DNA from: Streptomyces sp. NBC_01353
Lineage (GTDB): Bacteria > Actinomycetota > Actinomycetes > Streptomycetales > Streptomycetaceae
DNA: 64,000 bases
NCBI RefSeq assembly: GCF_036237275.1
Contig: NZ_CP108352.1
Coordinates: 2,790,001-2,854,000 of the forward strand
Direction: 5' to 3'
The position numbers and the translations under genes were made by a program. Within the stretch, counting starts at the first letter, position 1; each line of letters opens with the position of its first letter. The notes under the pieces are model-generated. The model was not told where the DNA came from, searched no databases, and saw nothing but the letters and a program-made list of their open reading frames with translations. This document shows, piece after piece, positions 16,416 to 42,872 of this stretch.

Positions 16416-16438
16416 TTCGACTCCCGGCGCGATACAGT
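16409..16438 (+). promoter_or_regulatory. Sigma70/HrdB-type promoter for the S1-domain gene leader
   Basis: TTGACA at 16409-16414, 18-bp spacer, TACAGT at 16433-16438, in an unusually AT-rich stretch. Predicted start of transcription ~16445, giving a ~95-nt leader that contains a short peptide ORF and a terminator hairpin. The -35 box overlaps the helD start codon. Confidence 0.7.
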
Positions 16439-16488
16439 GCGTTTATTGAACTTCTCCGCGTCTTTCGTTGTGCGTAGACACGGAATCC

Positions 16489-16527
16489 ATGAATATACGC
16501 GAAAAACAACCCCGACTGCAATTCTAG
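16489..16527 (+). CDS. 12-residue leader peptide in the attenuator of the S1-domain gene
   Basis: ATG at 16489 opens a tiny ORF, MNIREKQPRLQF, ending with TAG at 16525-16527. The stop lies inside the terminator hairpin at 16510-16533, so a ribosome finishing or stalling on this peptide would alter hairpin formation. This is the usual geometry of ribosome-mediated attenuation. Its start has only a weak ACGGAA upstream. Translation is inferred, not shown. Confidence 0.5.
   Translation: MNIREKQPRLQF
16492..16521 (-). promoter_or_regulatory. Candidate divergent promoter for helD
   Basis: On the minus strand, TTGCAG (16521-16516), an 18-bp spacer and TATATT (16497-16492) form a plausible -35/-10 pair. 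Transcription would begin near 16485 and run antisense to the first ~40 nt of the opposing leader before the helD ATG at 16415. Confidence 0.5.
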
Positions 16528-16539
16528 TCGGGGTATTTT
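16510..16539 (+). terminator. Intrinsic terminator/attenuator ahead of the S1-domain gene
   Basis: Stem CCCCGACT (16510-16517) pairs perfectly with AGTCGGGG (16526-16533) across an 8-nt loop and is followed by TATTTT. It lies between the promoter and the gene, so it is an attenuator, not an end-of-gene terminator. Its 3' arm also supplies the only GGGG upstream of the ATG at 16541, so the hairpin would hide the ribosome-binding site. Confidence 0.75.
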
Positions 16540-16540
16540 C

Positions 16541-17570
16541 ATGTCTCATCGGGAGAGACGAAGCCCGCGATCTGCTGATCGCGCACGGCGCGGACACACT
16601 GAACCACCCGGGCGGCACCCTGCTGGCCCACCTGGGCAGGGTCGAGGCCCGACTGGCCGCCTGGGGCGCACGCGACGACCTCCGACTCGCCGGCCTGTGC
16701 CACGCCTTCTACGGCACGGACGGCTTCGCCGAGCACCTGCTGCCCCTGGAACGCCGCGATGAGCTGGCGGCGGCGATCGGCACGGAGGCGGAGGAGATCG
16801 TGTATCTCTACGCGAGCTGCGACCGGGAATTCTCGTACCCCGGCATCGGGCGGGAGGACGGACTCTTCCGGGACCGCTTCACCGGGGAGACCCTCACGCC
16901 GACGGCGATGCAGCGGCGGGACTTCGCGGAGCTGACGGCGGCGAACGAACTGGACGTGCTGCGGGAGAACCGGGAGCTGTGGGACCGCCACGGAGGCGCT
17001 CTGCTGAAGCTGTTCACACGGTGGCGGCCCCTGCTGAGCGAGGCGGCGTTCAAGGACGCGCGCGGGCTTCTGAGACTGGAGGGCGAGGAGCGGGCGGCGT
17101 TCCTGCGGGGGCTGGAGCGGGGCGATGTCGTCACCGGTGTCGTCGCGGTGATCGCGAGCTTCGGCGTGACCTTCGTGGAACTGGGCGGGGTGGAGGCGAT
17201 GATGAACATCCCGGAGGTGTCCTGGCGCCCCGTCGACACCCCCGCCGACGTCATCGCCGAGGGCGAGGAGCACGCCTTCGAGGTGCTCGACGTGGACATC
17301 GACCGGGAGCGGGTGTCCCTCTCGCTCAAAGCACTGGAGCCCGACCCGATGGCCGCGTTCGCCCGCGCCGGGTTCGACGGGGTCCGCACCGCGACGGTCA
17401 CCCACGTCGTGACCTTCGGGGTCCTCGTCGAGGTGGCCCCGGGCGTCCACGGCGTACTGCACAAGGACGACCTCGGGGACCGTGCCCCGGGCGAGGGTGA
17501 CGAGCTCGCCGTCGAGGTCACTGCCGTCAACCTCGTCACGCGCCGCCTCGGGCTCAGGCTCCACGGATAA
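16541..17570 (+). CDS. S1 RNA-binding domain protein with N-terminal DUF6817-like domain; apparent +1 frameshift near start
   Basis: The protein has an N-terminal ~130-residue domain with conserved His residues (HPGGTLLAHL, LCHAFYGTDGF) resembling DUF6817, as I recall it, and two C-terminal S1 domains (about GDVVTGVVAVIASFG and VTHVVTFGVLVEVAPGVHG), suggesting RNA or ribosome binding. The start is problematic. The main frame has no ATG or GTG start downstream of the attenuator. ATG 16541 (GGGG seven bases upstream) gives MSHRE in another frame, and skipping one base near the rare AGA codon at 16556 would join MSHRE to DEARDLLIAHGAD in the main frame. The coordinates therefore span a frameshift; the alternative is GTG 16470 without a ribosome-binding site. 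Expression is probably attenuated. Confidence 0.7.
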
Positions 17571-17610
17571 TCCCGTGCGGCCCGACCGCAGCACCGCTAC
17601 CGTCGACCGC

Positions 17611-17664
17611 ATGAAGCGCGCCGCGATCATCACGACGACGCCGGAGAGTGTCCCGGCGCGCTGA
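17611..17664 (+). CDS. Threonine-rich leader peptide (attenuator) of the ThrRS-like gene
   Basis: A 17-residue ORF, MKRAAIITTTPESVPAR, contains two Ile and three consecutive ACG Thr codons and ends 15 nt before a strong terminator hairpin, 86 nt upstream of a threonyl-tRNA synthetase paralogue. Segment GCGCGCCG (17616-17623) can pair with CGGCGCGC (17654-17661), giving the 1:2 stem expected of an attenuator. Ribosome stalling at the Thr codons when charged tRNA-Thr is scarce would disrupt it and favour antitermination. The role is inferred from layout and codon content. Confidence 0.75.
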   Translation: MKRAAIITTTPESVPAR

Positions 17665-17678
17665 CTGCTGACCAGTGA

Positions 17679-17710
17679 CGAAGCCCCGGGGCGAGTGCCC
17701 CGGGGCTTCG
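17679..17710 (+). terminator. Attenuator terminator hairpin before the ThrRS-like gene
   Basis: Perfect 14-bp stem, CGAAGCCCCGGGGC (17679-17692) with 17697-17710, and a GAGT tetraloop. It has no U-tract, as is usual for strong Streptomyces hairpins. It sits between the Thr leader peptide and the gene start. Confidence 0.75.
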
Positions 17711-17749
17711 CGCTGTGGTCACTCGCCCGCTGTCCGCGAGGAGACCACC

Positions 17750-18970
17750 GTGCACGACCACCGCAAGCTCGGCCGCGAGCTGGGCCTGTTCGACACCGAC
17801 CCGCTGATCGGCGCGGGGCTGCCGTACTGGCTGCCCGACGGGGCCGTCGTACGGCACACCCTGGAGGAGTACGTCCGGGAGGTGGAGCGCCGGGCCGGGT
17901 ACCGGCACGTGTACTCGCCGGTCCTCGGGAAACGGGAGCTGTACGAGATCTCCGGGCACTGGGCGCACTACAGCGACGACATGTTCCCGCCGATGGAGCT
18001 CGGCGGCGAACAGGTCGTCCTGCGGCCGAGCCTCTGCCCGCACCACGCGGTGATCTACCGCTCCCGCGCCCACAGCTACCGCGAGCTGCCGTTGCGGATG
18101 GCCGAGCTCGGCGGCATGTACCGCTCCGAACTCTCCGGCGTCCTCGGCGGGTTGACCCGGGTCCGGGCCATCCAGCTGAACGACGCGCACATCTTCTGCA
18201 CCCTGGACCAGGTCGCCGAGGAGGCCGCGGCCGCCCTGGAGCTGATCGGGCGGGCGTACGAGGCGATGGGCATCGCGCCGGCCCGGTACCGGCTCTCGCT
18301 CCCCGGGCCCGGTGGCAAGTACGCCGCCGCGCCCGAGCTGTGGGAGCGGTCAACCGCGCTCCTGCGCGAAGTGCTCGACGCCTCCGGGCTCGCATACGAG
18401 GCCGCCGAGGGCGAGGCCGCGTTCTACGGACCCAAGATCGACGTGCAGGTCGCGGACGGAGCGGGGCGGGAGTCGACCCTGTCGACCGTGCAGATCGACT
18501 TCCACCAGCCCGAGCGCTTCGGTCTGCACTACATCGGGGCGGACGGCGCCAAGCACCGGCCCGTGATGATCCACCGCAGCGTCGTCGGCAGCGTGGAGCG
18601 GGCCGTCGCCCACCTCCTCGAACAGCACGGCGGCGCCTTCCCGGCCTGGCTGGCCCCCGTCCAGCTGGCTGTCCTCCCGGTCTCGGAGTCCGAGCTGCCC
18701 GCCGCCGACGCACTGGCCGCCCGGTGCGCCGAACGCGGCCTGCGGGCCGAGGTCGTGGGCCCGGAGCGGGGCACCCTGGGCGCCCGTGTCCGGGAAGCCC
18801 GCCTCGTCCCGTACCAGGCGGTCGTCGGCGCGAGGGAGGCAGCCGACGACCTGGTGGCGCTGCGGCTGCGGGACGGCCGGCGACTCGACGCGCTGCCCTC
18901 CGGCGGGGTCCTCGACCGGGTCGAGGCGCTCGTCGGGGCGCACAGCACCGAGCTGTGGGACACCCCTTAG
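17750..18970 (+). CDS. Threonyl-tRNA synthetase paralogue lacking TGS and editing domains
   Basis: A 406-residue class II synthetase core plus anticodon-binding domain. A full bacterial ThrRS is ~640-660 residues; the N-terminal TGS and editing (N2) domains are absent. Motif 2 is recognisable around RMAELGGMYRSE...TRVRAIQ, and motif 3 around VGSVERAVAHLLE. The catalytic zinc ligands are conserved: Cys in SLCPHH, His in NDAHIF and His in MIHRSVVG. It should charge tRNA-Thr or act on a related substrate without editing. GTG 17750 has GAGGAG six bases upstream. The Thr-rich leader and hairpin directly upstream point to attenuation by threonine starvation. Such paralogues can give self-resistance to ThrRS inhibitors, but no inhibitor cluster is evident here. 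Its stop overlaps the convergent trx stop by 4 bp. Confidence 0.88.
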   Translation: MHDHRKLGRELGLFDTDPLIGAGLPYWLPDGAVVRHTLEEYVREVERRAGYRHVYSPVLGKRELYEISGHWAHYSDDMFPPMELGGEQVVLRPSLCPHHAVIYRSRAHSYRELPLRMAELGGMYRSELSGVLGGLTRVRAIQLNDAHIFCTLDQVAEEAAAALELIGRAYEAMGIAPARYRLSLPGPGGKYAAAPELWERSTALLREVLDASGLAYEAAEGEAAFYGPKIDVQVADGAGRESTLSTVQIDFHQPERFGLHYIGADGAKHRPVMIHRSVVGSVERAVAHLLEQHGGAFPAWLAPVQLAVLPVSESELPAADALAARCAERGLRAEVVGPERGTLGARVREARLVPYQAVVGAREAADDLVALRLRDGRRLDALPSGGVLDRVEALVGAHSTELWDTP

Positions 18971-42288: not shown

Positions 42289-42872
42289 GAGAATCCTCCT
42301 TCTCGGACGTACATCTCCGGATGGGCTCAGGGCCCGTCCTGGGATGGGAGAAGCGCTACGTCCTCGGGAAGGAGCGCCGAACATCGGGCGCGACCCGCGT
42401 CCGATTCACCGGCGATCACCCCCGAGCGACAACCACTGGCCACGCCTTGCGCGCAACCTCCTTGGACAGGCCCCGCCGGTGAAGGCAGGAACCCCCCTGT
42501 CCACAGCCGGCGCCACTGTCGCCGACCCACTCGGTGGGGACCCTCGCCGCGAACCCGGTTGGTTGCCGGGCTGGTGCGGTATCGGACCGAGCGTCGCCGA
42601 TCGTGGTCCATTCCGGGCCGGGGCACAAGGGGGTTCGTTACCGGCTAGTAACGGGTGGATAACCACGCCACGACAGGGCGATGTCGCCCGGCCACACAGG
42701 GTGCAGTTCACCGGGGCCGTACATCAGGATGTTGAGGATGAAAGCCGGACAGAATGCCGGGTTCGATTTACTGCAAGTAACAGCGGCCGCGTTTACCAAG
42801 TTTTGGTAAAGCGCGGCCGCGAAATGTCACTGTGTCGCCAAATCAGCGCGATTCGGCGCGCCTGGAACGTGC
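42289..42872. promoter_or_regulatory. 584-bp upstream region of the DUF6230 operon
   Basis: No convincing gene. Two related palindromes stand out: CGTTAC-N6-GTAACG (42636-42653) and TTACT-N3-AGTAA (42768-42780), candidate operators. A bulged hairpin at 42783-42820 is probably the terminator of the adjacent thioredoxin/TPR gene. The remaining ~300 bp next to the operon (42301-42620) is plain high-GC sequence; an open plus-strand frame there has no coding character. Confidence 0.5.
42783..42820 (-). terminator. Hairpin downstream of the thioredoxin/TPR gene
   Basis: GCGGCCGCG-TTTACCAA pairs with TTGGTAAA-(G)-CGCGGCCGC around a GTT loop: 17 bp with one bulged G. The inner TTTACCAA/TTGGTAAA half could also be read as an operator. 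Confidence 0.65.

Follow-up and report, generated by a model that had tools for sequence, protein, structure and literature searches.

The closest described counterpart of the element presented here is thrL (SLIV_19412) of Streptomyces lividans TK24, which lies upstream of thrS (SLIV_19410), a gene for a threonine-tRNA ligase. Its peptide, MKRVRPFLETTPGFVPAR*, is encoded by a leaderless ORF with one hairpin and no U-rich stretch, and termination was left unclear (PMC8079986). The sections of that account considered here contain no analysis of conservation, covariation or codon use; noticed in 2021 as thrL, the element belongs, as far as these sections go, to a known but barely described class, of which our literature searches found no further description. 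For Actinobacteria in general, the parts of PMC1262725 considered here describe only unusual ileS T-boxes, predict leader-peptide attenuators before trpS and leuS and report no conserved structure for threonine operons. Leader-peptide geometry was already known for actinobacterial synthetases (PMC1262725), and the contrast with actinobacterial T-boxes that had been drawn for the present locus is not upheld.

The locus lies in a window of 64,000 nucleotides, i.e. the whole stretch of Streptomyces DNA that was analysed, to which all coordinates refer. The leader, the synthetase gene and its ribosome-binding site (RBS) are placed as follows:

17611-17664, plus strand: leader ORF MKRAAIITTTPESVPAR*; a TTT-type leader is found in 106 of 110 homologue loci (identity at least 60%, duplicates kept in the count)
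17632-17640, plus strand: putative sensor codons ACG ACG ACG; 106 leaders have 318 such codons, 316 of them ACG (the search pattern left the third base of the Thr codons free)
17739-17744, plus strand: Shine-Dalgarno sequence AGGAGA of thrS2, assigned from the sequence
17750-18970, plus strand: thrS2, a ThrRS paralogue of 406 aa (TIGR00418, 444.8 bits, model positions 171-563 of 565; Pfam)

A first, sequence-only reading had proposed a threonine attenuator here, and its leader ORF, 1:2 stem, hairpin and ThrRS-like start are all found where it had put them. We suggest, with a probability of about two in three, that the region is best explained as the 5' control region of an editing-less backup synthetase, thrS2, with a leader that would sense the decoding of ACG and an output that would consist in opening of the RBS. 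Comparison of relatives provides the promoter spacing, the ACG codons, the conservation of the leader at the RNA level, a strong hairpin and two helices downstream of it.

The gene starts with GTG at 17750, and its product is a ThrRS by NCBIfam TIGR00418 above the cut-off, in line with the start that had been claimed. Only catalytic and anticodon-binding domains are present; since the TIGR00418 match covers only positions 171-563 and the protein has 406 aa, the N-terminal and editing domains are missing. The host genome also has a full-length ThrRS, which is 43% identical to the thrS2 product over the shared part. At the positions aligned to E. coli S488/L489 His-Gln is found in 130 of 138 ThrRS2 sequences (one has Tyr-Gln and one His-Leu, and six escaped the pattern used), and the housekeeping ThrRS of the host has Asn-Leu. 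Changes at L489 are described to confer borrelidin resistance (PMC4389257), and His-Gln would fit a drug-tolerant (borrelidin-insensitive) backup enzyme, which we take as a hint. The idea of a zinc-independent ThrRS was dropped as 136 of 138 copies have the Cys motif and 106 have one His motif; the pattern for the last His matched 0 of 138 ThrRS2, yet the window protein has MIHR. One genome has, at L369 (G014:C316:24500-32500), another two ThrRS2-like matches separated by about 4 kb, with 58% and 40% identity to that of the window, the better of which entered the codon counts. Several thrS2 matches (L103, L109 and others) are listed with one in-frame TGA or TAG.

The leader of the window reads ATG AAG CGC GCC GCG ATC ATC ACG ACG ACG CCG GAG AGT GTC CCG GCG CGC TGA and follows the form M[KQ]RA-x(n)-TTTPExVPAR*, which stands ahead of thrS2 in the 106 loci listed above with variation at single residues. 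The four loci without it comprise a Thr-Thr-Ala variant (L107), a leader in which the contig end falls, with the remainder kept (L045), and two copies of the same sequence (L060 and L093), where the leader is replaced and the hairpin kept. Both the leader and its Thr codons are conserved at the frequencies given (106 of 110 loci; ACG in 316 of 318 codons) and, as judged by sequence comparison, the leader is a real and not a chance ORF. The two Ile codons, which had been pointed out together with the Thr codons, vary freely, are not conserved across the homologue loci and are not supported as sensors, and the stretch from MKRA to TTT varies in length by whole triplets among relatives.

In the host genus 123 of 295 genomes contain a broader pattern of the element, ACNACNCCNGNNNNNGTNCCNGCNCGNTGA; class-wide it was found in 51 of 394 genomes, which represent 15 of 137 genera, or 14 if G573, whose match was judged by its spelling to be due to chance, is dropped. 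The reversed control of this pattern gave no match in the genus (295 genomes) or the class (394 genomes). A match at L145 (G170) is also a chance one, its flanks having neither such a leader nor a ThrRS, so at least two matches are accidental, inspection having covered the fetched loci. Apart from these two, and with the other wobble positions left free in the pattern, nearly all listed matches differ only at the codon before GTC and at the third base preceding that codon; further exceptions are G177 C66, which also differs, and G136 and G246, which have GGA or GGG for GAG. In one relative (L091) the interval from the Thr codons to region 2 is shorter by one base, which alters the peptide frame and keeps the RNA GTCCCGGCGCGCTGA; the tail of the leader is therefore kept as RNA rather than as peptide. 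A conserved arrest peptide PESVPAR was rejected as main cause for the same reason and also because the codon before GTC varies freely. Among 224 fetched loci with the element ten had no ThrRS motif by the pattern used: six are thrS2 genes with divergent starts (L023, L034, L058, L160, L164, L178), L123 and L157 are one decayed thrS2, L145 is the unrelated match and L225 a contig-end case. That the leader governs genes other than thrS2 was rejected, as these loci are mostly divergent or decayed thrS2, chance or contig end.

Between the promoter and the start of thrS2 the RNA (17605-17749) has a predicted folding energy of -83.9 kcal/mol; 200 shuffles average -60.6 kcal/mol, and none of them reaches this value (z -5.6). 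The following pairings have to be considered:

17615-17662, plus strand: 1:2 stem, 17615-17623 with 17654-17662, 9 bp, predicted in the minimum free energy fold
17633-17663, plus strand: hairpin in which the Thr codons and CCGG would pair with region 2 (core 17639-17644 with 17653-17658), predicted by RNAalifold from 100 sequences
17650-17692, plus strand: candidate antiterminator 2:3, 17650-17656 with 17686-17692 (GUCCCGG:CCGGGGC), from folds with blocked 5' ends
17679-17710, plus strand: 14-bp hairpin 3:4 without U-tract, with compensatory changes
17692-17725, plus strand: helix A:B, hairpin loop 17692-17697 (CGAGUG) with 17720-17725 (CACUCG), with covariation
17717-17746, plus strand: helix B:C, 17717-17720 and 17722-17726 with 17736-17740 and 17743-17746, which would close the thrS2 RBS

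Hairpin 3:4 is perfect over its 14 bp, exactly as it had been described, and has the loop GAGU. In the alignment of relatives that the sequence-only reading had suggested, the Thr codons are conserved and hairpin 3:4 covaries, with 98.5% of cells paired in the 11 inner pairs, 91.7% in the three outer ones and changes on both sides in five pairs; the same cannot be said of the 1:2 stem, since helices 1:2 and 2:3 are nearly invariant like the Thr-codon hairpin and covariation is uninformative for them. The 1:2 stem contains the 8 bp originally seen (17616-17623 with 17654-17661) plus an extra pair, 17615-17662, and its AGCGYGC arm is mostly kept though its distance from the ATG varies (a few relatives have AGCC). 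The RNAalifold set consisted of 100 leader regions chosen from 160 of suitable length among 165 distinct ones. Six core pairs of the Thr-codon hairpin are invariant and beyond the reach of covariation; this pairing would explain the frozen ACG wobble bases without tRNAs, i.e. the freeze could be due to pairing alone.

The two helices downstream of the hairpin were proposed by hand and then counted, and the counts treat the sequences without ancestry correction. In helix A:B 95.4% of cells are paired and three of six pairs are changed on both sides (one pair is GC in 94 and AU in 6 sequences, none broken); the structure of hairpin plus A:B gives covariation above all 500 shuffles and all slid versions. 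An unaligned test with 163 sequences resulted in a mean fit of the loop to the downstream region of 5.16 of about 6 versus 3.28 in shuffles. Also the summed fit of 51 unusual loops to their own downstream regions exceeds all 2000 permutations, with ten of the 51 scoring 3.5 or less, which is about the shuffle mean or below, and 17 for which the commonest loop would fit better. Compensatory loops CGGGUG with CACCCG occur in L075 and L097 from the host genus and in L208 from family f18, and their presence in different families argues against a single event. For helix B:C 92.8% of cells are paired and four of nine pairs are changed on both sides. When it is included, 0 or 1 of 500 shuffles reach each measure (1 of 500 reached two measures), the control slid by +1 has 18 cells changed on both sides versus 17 observed, and the unaligned test gives a slight excess (3.91 versus 3.48 in shuffles; 95 of 165 above). 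The RNAalifold consensus of the 100 sequences contains no pairs downstream of the hairpin.

Helices A:B and B:C share the segment CACUCGC. In the mechanism that we propose, prompt decoding of ACG would allow the ribosome to clear the leader and the hairpin to form, CACUCGC would pair with GCGAGGAG and thrS2 would be closed. If charged tRNA-Thr for ACG were short, the ribosome would stall on the ACG codons and cover the 5' arm, region 2 would be freed and could pair with the 5' side of the hairpin, and the loop strand GCGAGUG could then take up CACUCGC, by which the start site of thrS2 would open. In addition, some transcripts may end prematurely at the hairpin. The body of thrS2 is written nearly entirely in ACC and ACU, and it would be translatable while decoding of ACG fails; ACC and ACU are read by tRNA-Thr GGU under standard wobble rules. 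Both the sensing of threonyl-tRNA and the output step are what we infer from these features, and likewise a response to threonine or to a ThrRS inhibitor may be expected, on which the published activation of thrS2 by WblC and the His-Gln pair of ThrRS2 have a bearing. Alternatively, helix A:B might form as a pseudoknot once the hairpin is complete, and the last step would then work the other way round. Altogether a translational or mixed output appears at least as likely as termination.

Termination is the essence of the first alternative, namely a classical transcription attenuator with 17679-17710 as terminator, 2:3 as antiterminator and the helices near the RBS as secondary features, an explanation that we regard as possible though rather unlikely. 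It is favoured by the layout of leader stop, region 2 and hairpin, and attenuators are predicted at leuS and trpS in Streptomyces (PMC1262725). Furthermore, folding with a ribosome placed on the first Thr codon gives 2:3 as a transient pairing: with the 5' end blocked to 17647 (A site on the first Thr codon) it forms in RNA ending at 17695 or 17699, with the block extended to 17650 (second Thr codon) it is weaker, with a block to 17653 (third Thr codon) no 2:3 is found in the fold, and once the RNA reaches 17703 the full hairpin beats 2:3 by free energy. Mutual exclusion of 1:2, 2:3 and 3:4 is possible by these folds, with 2:3 present only in short RNAs and with the ribosome on the first or, weakly, the second codon. 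Because 2:3 folds only in some of the blocked states, the transcriptional version would depend on timing and ribosome position, and in these models the open state can be reached only through kinetics or with the ribosome stopped at the first Thr codon. Against this version stands the hairpin itself, which had been taken for a terminator and lacks a U-tract both in the window and in almost every relative. A search of 17400-17900 for terminator-like sites with a U-tract gave none; of 165 distinct relatives two have TTTT directly behind the hairpin, and none of the 8-nt stretches counted holds more than 5 T. The S. lividans authors, too, called termination unclear (PMC8079986), and the helices 3' of the hairpin would need another explanation. 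From the classic geometry of attenuation there remain the conserved leader with its Thr codons and pairings that may exclude each other ahead of a ThrRS paralogue; a classical Rho-independent terminator is not supported. A ribosome-mediated attenuator is, as far as the sequence can tell, still the best reading: the leader is real and conserved, the core of the attenuation reading stands, and doubt concerns its terminator step.

Of the new results the strongest is that a gene preceded by an all-ACG leader lacks ACG in a way specific to Thr. All ten Thr codons of thrS2 in the window are ACC. In the aligned stretches of 172 distinct leader-bearing thrS2 genes Thr is encoded by ACC 1747 times, by ACU 59 times, by ACG six times and by ACA three times (of 1815), and 166 of these 172 genes have no ACG at all. 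In 138 thrS2 codons ending in G (NNG) account for 20-64% of seven fourfold families and for 0.8% in the case of Thr; codon use for Ala, Gly, Pro, Val, Arg and Ser is close to that in the genome sample, and for Leu it is somewhat shifted. This sample of 234 host genes, picked by a simple ORF rule, has 59% ACC and 35% ACG for Thr, and only 2 of 228 genes with at least eight Thr have no ACG. The share of Thr among residues is 2.6% in thrS2 versus a host median of 5.9%. According to the selective-charging theory, described for E. coli leaders, the choice of sensor codons follows tRNA supply and demand (PMC1183508). Our literature searches turned up this theory and no report of the present case, and the theory has a strong natural example in the divided codon use of leader and gene, which is testable by synonymous codon swaps alone. 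The tRNA-Thr genes found in the host (part of 68 tRNA places read) are two for GGU and one each for CGU and UGU, and with these copy numbers ACG is not clearly marked as the sensitive codon.

Avoidance of ACG in thrS2 could also have nothing to do with the leader and come from codon preferences common in well-expressed genes or in synthetase genes as such. This is in our opinion doubtful, since the bias of thrS2 is confined to Thr and other candidate genes do not share it: 21 housekeeping thrS, all from genomes carrying thrS2, use ACG in 180 of 600 codons (30%), the Thr codons of leuS are 28% ACG, the host genes hom, thrC and thrB (named from a thrB match, position and N-termini) have 6/28, 10/24 and 7/14 ACG, and ProRS shows no bias at Pro (21/30 CCG). 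Points in its favour come from other synthetase genes biased at their own amino acid, such as host valS (L403) with GUG for Val in only 4 of 66 codons, far below the genome share, or alaS, which in nine genomes has 12% GCG for Ala and is biased at Gly and Arg too. Moreover, among the 21 housekeeping thrS those of the host and of G004 have no ACG, and no Thr-run leader was seen upstream of the host gene. Finally, ACG accounts for 2 of 63 Thr codons in six thrS2-like genes with no leader detected and for 0 of 22 in three with a short upstream region; since these genes also avoid ACG, avoidance and leader may be uncoupled. A thrS2 lineage without leader and with genome-like use of ACG was not found.

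A comparable separation exists at leuS. Forty genomes have leuS and 30 of them were read; all 30 have a leader MRAV[RG]LLL[ST][EG]PR, whose Leu codons sum up to 58 CUU, 30 CUG and 2 CUC. The corresponding gene bodies contain 2166 CUG, 90 CUC, 0 CUU and 9 UUG, compared with 46% CUC and 51% CUG in the host sample. CUC makes up at most 13% of CUC plus CUG in 29 of 30 genes, the exception being L399 (CUC 30, CUG 47). The most extreme of 1757 gene-by-family tests in the host sample concerns Leu in ORF L245:46-2566, which by its coordinates is most of leuS. With one CUG in the leuL leader itself, leader and gene are kept apart less strictly than in the Thr case. At L364:533-571 and 29 other loci of the host genus leuL reads CUU CUG CUU, with CUC CUG CUU in two.

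From both cases we derive an insulation rule, which in our estimation could go either way: synthetase genes controlled by tRNA sensing would be purged of codons read by the sensed isoacceptor. thrS2 would sense ACG and is written in ACC/ACU, and leuS would sense mainly CUU and is written in CUG. If true, the sensor would report one isoacceptor and the rescue gene would use another, and the rescue protein could be made when the sensed tRNA fails. If the rule is general, exclusion of a codon from a synthetase gene could even reveal the tRNA sensed by its control region. A third and weaker case is provided by the only sampled clade with ACG-free housekeeping thrS, i.e. the host and its close relatives G004 and G015 (97% identity; the other 27 loci have 3-18 ACG), which would have gained two hairpin-like repeats with a CGU loop in the 5' UTR, similar to the anticodon arm of tRNA-Thr(CGU). 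Upstream of housekeeping thrS at L002:540-729, L435 and L436 the repeats read GGCA-CCTCGTCTC-TGCC and GGCA-CTTCGTGTC-TGCC with CGT in the middle. The pattern GGCA-C[CT]TCGT-[CG]TC-TG[CT][CT] was made on the host and finds, among 30 loci, only the three with ACG-free housekeeping thrS, namely both copies in the host and one per relative, where the second copy is visible in the sequence. The fold of G004 shows hairpins at the repeats and the best fold of the host does not. They are a possible mimic of tRNA-Thr(CGU) controlling housekeeping thrS, presumably comparable with the tRNA mimicry in the E. coli thrS operator. As repeats and loss of ACG represent one event, their coincidence could be chance. 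In any case the codon rule is not universal among synthetases: valS is strongly biased, alaS partly and ProRS not.

Upstream of the leader the following elements point to control by WblC:

17566-17571, plus strand: WblC/WhiB7-type box GATAAT, 3 nt upstream of the -35 element, with one mismatch to GAAAWY
17575-17603, plus strand: promoter with -35 GTGCGG (17575-17580), a 17-nt spacer and -10 TACCGT (17598-17603)

The consensus of WblC promoters comprises GAAAWY 3 nt upstream of -35, a spacer of 16-19 nt and TANNNT (PMC7157823). The window has this layout with one mismatch in the box and a 17-nt spacer, and its -35 element differs from the consensus TKGMNN at the first base. In the 150 of 165 relatives in which the leader start was located, an exact GAAA[AT][CT] lies at -48 to -39 of the leader ATG in 57, with 0 in each of nine control windows, and AAA at the distance of the box in 107, again with none in the nine control windows. 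TANNNT starts at -13 (121) or -12 (28) relative to the leader ATG, together in 149 of these 150, and in a separate set of 106 leaders at -13 (93), -12 (9) or -16 (4). Transcription is predicted to start at 17610-17611; since a distance of 6-7 nt from the end of the -10 element to the leader start is kept by almost all relatives examined, the leader would very probably be translated as a leaderless ORF. In S. coelicolor thrS2 is listed as WblC-activated (PMC7157823), and by its name that gene is likely to be the orthologue of the window gene. Activation by WblC would engage the system under translation-inhibiting antibiotics, and the element may connect this response with how well one threonine isoacceptor is charged. 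The upstream gene (16437-17570) joins a DUF6817 domain to S1 RNA-binding domains and ends 40 nt before the leader.

In an improbable alternative the leaderless ORF would be a general stall sensor for ribosome-targeting antibiotics, like the published uORF of wblC, and the Thr codons would be of minor importance. It is favoured by the WblC-type promoter and the presence of thrS2 in the WblC regulon (PMC7157823). Nevertheless, almost all relatives have Thr codons ahead of a Thr synthetase gene, with variable codons in front of them, and leuL-leuS shows the same match of amino acids. The idea of a conserved RNA or DNA element, e.g. a protein-binding site, with an incidental ORF can claim the sequence frozen at wobble positions and is very improbable all the same, since the start codon, the frame to the Thr codons and the promoter spacing are all kept and the number of codons before the Thr codons varies by whole triplets.

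Among known systems for a second ThrRS gene, thrZ of Bacillus subtilis is induced by threonine shortage and uses T-boxes, in contrast with the thrS2 locus, where none was found: there is no T-box match at the gathering threshold in the window, nor any up to E 5 in 17500-17850. Scans by gathering threshold and by E-value revealed no Rfam family that fits the site, weak matches being below the gathering scores. The only match at the gathering threshold in the window is a che1 RNA (RF02935; 94.8 bits) at 42410-42503 on the minus strand. The pheST attenuator of gamma-proteobacteria has a U-tract terminator and a leader led by a Shine-Dalgarno sequence. Like thrS2 it represents a synthetase operon under a leader peptide for its own amino acid (PMC1262725). 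The LEU element of actinobacterial leuA also has pairing of leader codons, a proposed pseudoknot and the RBS in a stem; it belongs to a different gene and its Leu codons pair with the Shine-Dalgarno box (PMC1262725), whereas in the consensus fold of the present element the Thr codons pair with region 2 and not with the RBS. For leuA, section 9 of PMC1262725 states that mutations of the Leu codons had no influence on regulation, and section 3 that leader mutations had some effect, which was inconsistent with attenuation.

The leuL2-leuS arrangement of Streptomyces is more similar, in that its leader is likewise leaderless and places consecutive cognate codons ahead of the synthetase (PMC8079986, PMC1262725). 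It also has a similar codon split, its leader being mainly CUU (besides the one CUG mentioned) and its gene CUG, and it differs by its sequence and by the uridine stretch that follows, unlike the hairpin of the window (PMC8079986). The most closely related element is thrL, which shares MKR..TTPxxVPAR* with the window leader, lies directly upstream of a ThrRS gene as well and has two Thr codons instead of three (PMC8079986). Its exact peptide MKRVRPFLETTPGFVPAR* precedes a ThrRS2-type start in G246 and G136 (L143 and L144, with the boxes GAAATC and GAAATT), from which the S. lividans gene behind thrL is probably thrS2. In this way the annotated curiosity thrL becomes a testable element that is found across a class of bacteria.
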